Part shown: piece by piece, positions 44,771-46,246 of the stretch
Layout of the letters: each line of letters opens with the position of its first letter
How positions within the stretch are numbered: the stretch's first letter is position 1
IMG/VR virus record: IMGVR_UViG_3300032116_000001
Coordinates: 62,001-126,000 of that record
Source of the DNA: a virus
Direction: 5' to 3' (one strand)
DNA: 64,000 nt
Notes under the pieces: generated by a model
What the model saw: only the letters and a program-made list of their open reading frames with translations
Database searches by the model: none
Told to the model about the DNA's origin: nothing
Position numbers and translations under genes: made by a program

Positions 44771-45511
44771 ATGTATAAACTTATGTCAAATTCAGCATAT
44801 ACTCAGTCAATAACAGAGCTTTTTGCAAAATTATACAAACCAAGATCGGAAGTTGTTCCTTTTAACAGGAGTGACTTGGAGACGATATGCCAAAAATATA
44901 ATGTTAAAAACATAGGAGATGTTTTGTATAGTTTTCGCAGCCGTCAGCAATTACCAAGTAGCATTAGAAGAACTGCAAAAAGAGGATTTCACTGGGTTAT
45001 TGAATTTAAGGGCAAGGGGAAATACCAATTTTCTCAATGGCCTGTTGCTTATATTAAGCCACAAATACTTGAGCCAACACTAATAAAAGATTGCACGCCC
45101 AAAATGATTAGCCAGTGTCTTGCGGATGATGAACAAGGCATGCTAACAAGAATGCGACACAATAATATACTGAGAAATTTTCTTGATCTTGATATTTATC
45201 ATCTTCAAAGCCATCTTAGAACATTTGTTCCTGGCGTTGGGCAAGTTGAAATTGATGATGTTTATGTTGGTGTTGATCAGCAAAGTAAACAATTTATCAT
45301 TCCTATTCAGGCCAAGTCATCTCATGATTTAATATCTGCGACACAATGTTCACAAGATATATTGTATTGCGAGTATTTTCATCCAAATTACAAATGTCGC
45401 TCGGTTGCAATAAAATCTATAGGAAATGAAACCTTGGCAGTTTTTGAATTAAAAGCAAAAGCCCCTGGCCATATTTGCATTGTAAATGAGCGTCATTTTC
45501 AATTTATTTAA
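44771..45511 (+). CDS. Orphan PD-(D/E)XK restriction-like endonuclease
   Basis: 246 residues. The C-terminal half carries VGQVEIDDVYVGVD (E160, D162/D163), then FIIPIQAKSSHD (Q180-x-K182), the metal and catalytic cluster of PD-(D/E)XK restriction endonucleases. The N-terminal half (residues 25-95) resembles a small DNA-recognition domain (LETICQKYNVKNIGDVLYSF). No methyltransferase is next to it, so host or phage DNA protection, if needed, comes from elsewhere. Possible roles: degrading host or competitor DNA, or a mobile homing-like gene. The start is tight against a hairpin, so translation may be restrained. Confidence 0.75.
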   Translation: MYKLMSNSAYTQSITELFAKLYKPRSEVVPFNRSDLETICQKYNVKNIGDVLYSFRSRQQLPSSIRRTAKRGFHWVIEFKGKGKYQFSQWPVAYIKPQILEPTLIKDCTPKMISQCLADDEQGMLTRMRHNNILRNFLDLDIYHLQSHLRTFVPGVGQVEIDDVYVGVDQQSKQFIIPIQAKSSHDLISATQCSQDILYCEYFHPNYKCRSVAIKSIGNETLAVFELKAKAPGHICIVNERHFQFI

Positions 45512-45577
45512 AACTTTTTTATTAAACAAAACGTATAAATAAATACGTTGTCTTTAATAAGGCAAGGAAGGAACGAA

Positions 45578-46123
45578 ATAAACAACAACAATAATAATCG
45601 CAAATCGCGGCGAGAGCCGCCTCCGAACATTAATGAGCGTCTTCTCCGATTTGGAGAAATCAGAGTCATTAATGCAGATGGTGATCAAATAGGTATAATG
45701 ACGTCAAGAAAGGCGCTAGACTTGGCCTTGGAAGATGGCCTTGACTTGATTTTAATTGCTGAGTCTGCAAAGCCTCCTGTATGCAAAATTGCCGATTATG
45801 GTAAGCATAAATACATTGAGGCGAAGCGCAAGAAAACAAGCAACAGTAAAAAACCTCAAGAAACCAAGAGTCTTAAAATTAGCCCGAGAATTTCTGATCA
45901 CGATTTAGGTATTACGGCTAAAAAAGCCTCTAACTTTTTGGAGCATGGAGATAAAGTTAGACTAATGTGTTTATTCAAGGCCCGTGAGCTTTCGCACCCA
46001 GCGCTTGGAAAAGAAAGACTGGCAAAGCTTATTGATTGTCTTTCCAGCTCTGCAATACCCGAGGGTGAGCCTTTGTTGGAAGGCAAAGTAATGGCCGTGG
46101 TTTTGCGGCCCAAAGATAATTAA
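45578..46123 (+). CDS. infC: Translation initiation factor IF-3, probable AUA start
   Basis: 181 residues, both IF-3 domains. N-domain: INERLLRFGEIRVINADGDQ, ALDLALEDGLDLILIAESA, KPPVCKIADYGKHKYIE; a Lys-rich linker; C-domain: LKISPRISDHDLGITAKKAS, FLEHGDKVRLMCLFKARELS, LEGKVMAVVLRPK. No ATG lies upstream in frame. AAGGAAGG (45564-45571) sits six bases ahead of ATA 45578, the best start; a TTG at 45548 lies before the Shine-Dalgarno. Bacterial infC uses AUU so that IF-3 represses itself, and this AUA could do the same. IF-3 selects start codons on the 30S subunit, so the phage may bias host translation. Asn-rich N-terminus is unusual. Confidence 0.92.
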   Translation: MNNNNNNRKSRREPPPNINERLLRFGEIRVINADGDQIGIMTSRKALDLALEDGLDLILIAESAKPPVCKIADYGKHKYIEAKRKKTSNSKKPQETKSLKISPRISDHDLGITAKKASNFLEHGDKVRLMCLFKARELSHPALGKERLAKLIDCLSSSAIPEGEPLLEGKVMAVVLRPKDN

Positions 46124-46138
46124 CGCACTCCAAAGCAC

Positions 46139-46180
46139 ACACAAAAAACATCATCTGTAAAAAGATGATGTTTTTTGTGT
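46139..46180 (+). terminator. Rho-independent terminator after infC
   Basis: ACACAAAAAACATCATCT pairs with AGATGATGTTTTTTGTGT over 18 bp around a six-base loop, with A and T tracts on each arm. It would separate infC from dnaX. Confidence 0.85.
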
Positions 46181-46246
46181 TCAGATGATGCAGAATGCAC
46201 GAAAAACTATAAATGAGTATTTCTTCAGCGGAGAAAAAATCACATT

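Follow-up and report, generated by a model that had tools for sequence, protein, structure and literature searches.

The IF3 locus in a jumbo phage genome

The window, a stretch of 64,000 nucleotides, corresponds to bases 62001-126000 of a 378,848-base IMG/VR virus record (a jumbo phage), which agrees with the phage label given to the locus in an earlier note. The record encodes the DNA polymerase III alpha subunit, DnaB, RecJ, and ribonucleotide reductase, together with more than 30 tRNAs and a tmRNA. IF1 and a release factor were looked for in the phage and neither was found. Two tRNA genes with CUA anticodons adjoin the tmRNA (L024:8691-8858). They prompted us to consider stop-codon recoding, an idea that was rejected because TAG appears to act as an ordinary stop in this genome.

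The IF3 coding sequence lies on the plus strand at 45578..46123 and comprises 181 codons, counted from an AUA, and a TAA stop. Both domains were complete according to Pfam, the PDB, and an alignment with the related phages L029 and L030, as had been claimed for this two-domain IF-3. IF3_N (PF05198) was matched over profile positions 5-69 of 70 (E=1.2e-24; 86.6 bits against a cut-off of 26.9) and IF3_C (PF00707) over positions 2-86 of 86 (E=1.2e-21; 76.9 bits against a cut-off of 34.8), and residues 18-180 match IF3 chains in the PDB (E=7e-36). The E. coli IF3 residues that we take to be involved in 30S contact or discrimination are Y70, G71, K72, Y75, R99, R112, R116, R131, R133, R147, and R168. 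By this list, Y70, G71, K72, Y75, and R133 are kept in the window protein, Lys is present at R112, R131, R147, and R168, and R99 and R116 are not kept; the two Armatimonadota sequences compared do not have Arg at these last two positions either.

The genes for DnaX, a sigma factor, and the beta clamp are directly 3' of IF3. The gene next to IF3 is DnaX and not the genes for L35 and L20, so the infC-rpmI-rplT layout was not seen here. Just 3' of the IF3 stop there is a strong 18-bp hairpin of terminator-like shape (46139..46180, plus strand), and the fold of 46121-46182 has an energy of -25.7 kcal/mol with z=-7.6. A terminator scan based on G+C missed this hairpin, and an Rfam search of the window returned no known RNA element. 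The gene directly 5' of IF3 (44771-45511 in the window; L029:5877-6791) is conserved in both phages and has no Pfam match.

Evidence for an AUA start codon

The IF3 frame is open from 45539, after a TAA at 45536-45538, to the TAA at 46121-46123. It contains no ATG 5' of ATA 45578, as the earlier note had stated; the first in-frame ATG is at 45698, within the N-terminal domain, and a start there would remove much of that domain. The leader (45512..45577, plus strand) extends from the upstream gene, whose stop is at 45509-45511, to the IF3 start. Five start-like codons are in frame in it or at its end (ATA 45539, ACG 45545, TTG 45548, ATA 45557, and ATA 45578) and only the last has a Shine-Dalgarno (SD) sequence at a normal distance. 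This SD, AAGGAAGGA (45564..45572, plus strand), is composed of two overlapping AAGGA motifs that are 5 or 9 bases from the ATA. The six-base spacing reported earlier was correct, with AAGGAAGG at 45564-45571 followed by AACGAA and then by the ATA (45578..45580, plus strand). A hairpin is predicted inside the leader (45514-45566, z=-2.8) and ends just 5' of the second AAGGA. In L029, too, a hairpin lies immediately 5' of the SD, and its sequence is unrelated to that of the hairpin in the window.

L029 and L030 were reached by a DnaX search and provided the alignment of first codons that the earlier note had proposed as a check. L029 is a 46-kb contig with a DnaX 86% and an IF3 68% identical to those of the window phage. 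The 23 in-frame codons before its aligned start include no ATG, GTG, TTG, or CTG, and the start is ATA with AAGGA five bases 5'. The IF3 of L030, a 112-kb contig, is 56% identical; only six in-frame codons separate the preceding stop from an ATT, none of them is NTG, and AAGGAG lies six bases 5'. In the alignment of the window phage, L029, and L030, protein similarity starts at the AUA codon (INNNNNNRKSRREPPP / ITNNNNTRKPRREPPP / ISQFNNNRPRREPAP, respectively), and TTG 45548 is not conserved.

The leaders of the three phages are poorly conserved in sequence and their genomes differ in GC (41%, 54%, and 33% for the window phage, L029, and L030). Since ATA also makes up only 0.22% of L029 codons, it is unlikely that drift kept the AUA in that phage. 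A chance test was conducted with dinucleotide shuffles, in which an AUH codon at the exact position had to be combined with an SD of at least five bases at a spacing of 4-9. The resulting probabilities were 0.0037 for the window, 0.0019 for L029, and 0.0033 for L030; the three are related and these values cannot simply be multiplied.

Translation could instead begin at TTG 45548 (45548..45550, plus strand), which would add ten residues, or at another conventional codon, with the ATA read as an internal Ile. TTG is a permitted start codon, is the only NTG upstream in frame, and was chosen by the standard ORF caller, but it has no SD, and the unconserved leaders and the lack of NTG codons in those of L029 and L030 make such a start very unlikely. 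An even less probable explanation is that the gene is a pseudogene or that the ATA arose from faulty sequencing or assembly. The record is a metagenome assembly, but ATA and ATT were found at the same place on independent contigs from other samples. The frame is also intact, and differences between the IF3 genes by codon position (59/33/114) are concentrated at third positions, which indicates that the protein is under selection. With ATA, ATA, and ATT behind an SD in three phages and no usable NTG, the proposed start at AUA is strongly supported, and from these sequences we consider AUA 45578 to be very likely the IF3 start.

Start codons elsewhere in the phage and in other IF3 genes

AUA starts were not found to be a genome-wide habit of the phage. 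Its 237 gene calls included 189 ATG, 21 TTG, and 17 GTG starts, as made by a crude caller that counted IF3 itself as conventional. A second scan gave one other convincing case, a dnaJ-like gene (L020:11610-12620; record bases 217610-218620). Its only plausible start is AUU 11634 (record base 217634), with GGAGG nine bases 5' and no NTG before it, and the J domain begins at the third residue from this codon. An in-frame conventional start at or near the equivalent place was present in 71 of 72 viral relatives. The dnaJ-like gene is a candidate for a further start of the IF3-discriminated kind in this phage.

A more distant phage, L039 (441 kb), has an IF3 that is 46% identical and starts with ATG ATG ATG. 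The AUH start class is therefore conserved within the three-member clade (ATA, ATA, and ATT) and not throughout the wider group. An IMG/VR scan for IF3 as a single protein yielded no match, and further scans after the DnaX search yielded no more close members.

Heuristic start calls were made for 47 viral IF3 loci taken from a pattern scan and phage records, and gave ATG for 27, GTG for seven, TTG for four, and AUH for nine. Four of the AUH calls (L045, L069, L070, and L005) have an ATG two codons downstream, and a fifth, L009, was rejected as a phage IF3 since the tree places it as a Lachnospiraceae infC. Leaders wholly without NTG were seen only in L029, L030, and L066, and the window leader contains just the SD-less TTG. 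L066 (IMGVR_UViG_3300009431_000701, IF3 frame end 2705) has an AUU behind AAGGAG and no ATG, GTG, or TTG in its leader. In the tree it groups with the 595-kb huge phage L005 in a clade of its own, made up of viral sequences only (support 100/92). Because this clade is separate from that of the window, a discriminated start appears to have come into use at least twice in viral IF3. In L005, the sister of L066, an ATT and an ATG are 7 and 13 bases 3' of AAGGAG. Two entries of the phage collection (L010 and L011; MK672802 and CAKLQF020000017) carry infC beside thrS, one of them also with L35/L20, and are annotated from internal codons, apparently because an AUU start was not recognised.

The earlier note had stated that bacterial infC uses AUU. 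This was right for 26 of the 80 infC genes nearest to the window IF3 but was too narrow, since AUA was called in 28 and AUC in 16 (heuristic calls). AUH starts, the minority among viral IF3 genes, predominate in this bacterial set. AUA was the rule as infC start in the Rhodobacteraceae examined, again by heuristic calls.

Probable origin from Armatimonadota infC

Among individual bacterial sequences, an Armatimonadota infC (L076) matched best; it has L20 and pheS nearby and a GGAGG followed by ATA AAC AAC. A search of 101 Armatimonadota genomes found infC genes closer than this one. One of these genomes' genes, L163, starts at ATA and reads IARFDRRPRREPPPDINERLLRIREVRL, compared to INNNNNNRKSRREPPPNINERLLRFGEIRV in the phage, and the N-terminus RREPPP[DN]INERLLR is common to L163 and the phage IF3. 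At the DNA level, the best match of the phage gene to an Armatimonadota infC was 70% over about 240 bases (E=6.5e-17), and the infC genes matching in this way have ATA or ATC starts and no in-frame NTG. The closest Armatimonadota infC genes start at AUA, AUC, or AUU with an SD at the equivalent place, and an in-frame NTG is often absent. A tree was built from 64 IF3s. In it, the phage clade together with L039 was nested in the Armatimonadota (100/98) and grouped with the L160-L170 type (94/85). The phage IF3 is without the C-terminal tail, tens of residues long, of its Armatimonadota relatives.

Because the bacterial genes nearest to the phage IF3s use AUA, AUC, or AUU, the phage very probably captured an Armatimonadota infC including its discriminated start codon, which is also the simplest account. 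An Armatimonadota host is suggested by one gene tree and by the DNA similarity of that gene, so that this phylum may include jumbo-phage hosts. Armatimonadota genomes were also searched for CRISPR spacers matching the phage, with one 20-kb stretch; the matches looked like gene homology, and none could be recognised as a spacer.

Proposed control of the phage gene by IF3

The AUU start of E. coli infC gives a feedback loop, Streptomyces infC starts at AUC, and non-NTG starts are repressed by IF3 (PMC5472188). Initiation on AUA was mapped for S. aureus infC by retapamulin profiling (PMC13009471). Since self-repression through AUU is known in E. coli and initiation at AUA in S. aureus, the likeliest mechanism would be repression of the phage gene by IF3. 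The suggestion that the phage copy follows the same logic as infC gains from this literature and from its descent from Armatimonadota genes with AUA, AUC, or AUU starts; the repression itself, AUA use in the cell, and the role in infection are what we infer from them.

The proposed sequence of events is as follows. A jumbo phage would have taken infC from an Armatimonadota host, lost the operon neighbours and the C-terminal tail, and kept the discriminated start. The initiator Met would be placed at AUA 45578 behind AAGGAAGG. As 30S complexes on AUA, AUU, and AUC are rejected by IF3, host and phage IF3 would jointly keep translation of the phage IF3 message low as long as IF3 is in excess over 30S subunits. 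Should free IF3 fall below the 30S supply, for example when host synthesis collapses during takeover, the gene would be switched on and would then shut itself down, providing a homeostatic top-up of IF3. We regard this explanation as likely when taken as a whole (captured infC, kept start, and IF3-sensing top-up), and likewise think that IF3 feedback probably acts on AUA 45578. Two observations count against the explanation: the ATG start of L039, by which the discriminated start is dispensable in the wider group, and the loss of R99 and R116, which the Armatimonadota sequences compared share.

A rather unlikely alternative is that the AUA, although a real start, is just a weak one keeping IF3 production down, or a leftover of the ancestral gene, with no IF3 feedback in infection. 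Reporter output from non-canonical starts in S. aureus was about 10%, at most 30%, of that from AUG (PMC13009471), L039 manages with ATG, and most viral IF3s have NTG, all of which are consistent with this alternative. However, the AUH class was found in all three clade members despite the change between ATA and ATT and their very different base composition. In IF3 genes, moreover, the same discrimination yields both the weak start and the feedback, so feedback would follow from a weak AUA unless the phage IF3 had lost discrimination and host IF3 were absent.

If IF3 feedback does hold, the AUA start would make the phage gene sensitive to both host IF3 and its own product. The phage IF3 may in addition influence which start codons are chosen on host or phage messages, as the earlier note proposed. 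A more tentative extension is that the virus took over the whole autogenous circuit, IF3 together with an IF3-sensitive start, to read the free-IF3 level of the cell, and that the signal may also switch further phage genes whose starts are discriminated, for example the dnaJ-like gene with its candidate AUU. Translation genes are numerous in huge phages; judging from this locus, a viral copy may bring its own control along in its start codon. Set beside the ATG- or GTG-started IF3s of other jumbo phages, the AUA-started gene would allow a direct test of whether host initiation is tuned or overwhelmed by phages. It would also be a case of an AUA-type start being misplaced or missed by standard gene callers.

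Comparison with known systems

Phage IF3 was already known (PMC7162821; PMC11242549), and huge and jumbo phages encode two-domain IF3s like that of the window (Al-Shayeb et al. 2020, PMC7162821). AUH-started infC is known as well. Searches of the open-access literature returned no description of a discriminated start in a viral IF3 gene, and the combination of the two is what appears to be new here. A GTG is available in the IF3 genes of Atu_ph07 and Sinorhizobium phage Phosso and an ATG in those of the uncultured LR7565xx genomes, in contrast to the AUA of the window, and those IF3s of this set that were in the tree fall outside the Armatimonadota clade, unlike the window IF3. Such ATG- or GTG-started copies would simply add IF3, whereas an AUA-started copy would top it up.

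The chromosomal infC genes of Armatimonadota (L160-L170, L261, and L265) encode proteins at most 54% identical to the window protein, with a similar N-terminal motif and SD-led AUA, AUC, or AUU starts. They are bacterial, with an SD of the GAGGTGA type and a C-terminal extension that the phage protein lacks. The bacterial infC genes with AUU in E. coli, AUC in Streptomyces, and AUA in S. aureus are like the phage gene in their IF3 product, SD-led AUH start, and codon class. They differ in sitting in infC-rpmI-rplT, whereas the phage copy is beside the DnaX, sigma-factor, and beta-clamp genes, and the feedback on the phage copy is proposed by analogy to theirs. Streptomyces sigR, with a GTC start repressed by IF3 (PMC5472188), is likewise a case of control through the start codon, but it is neither an IF3 gene nor viral.
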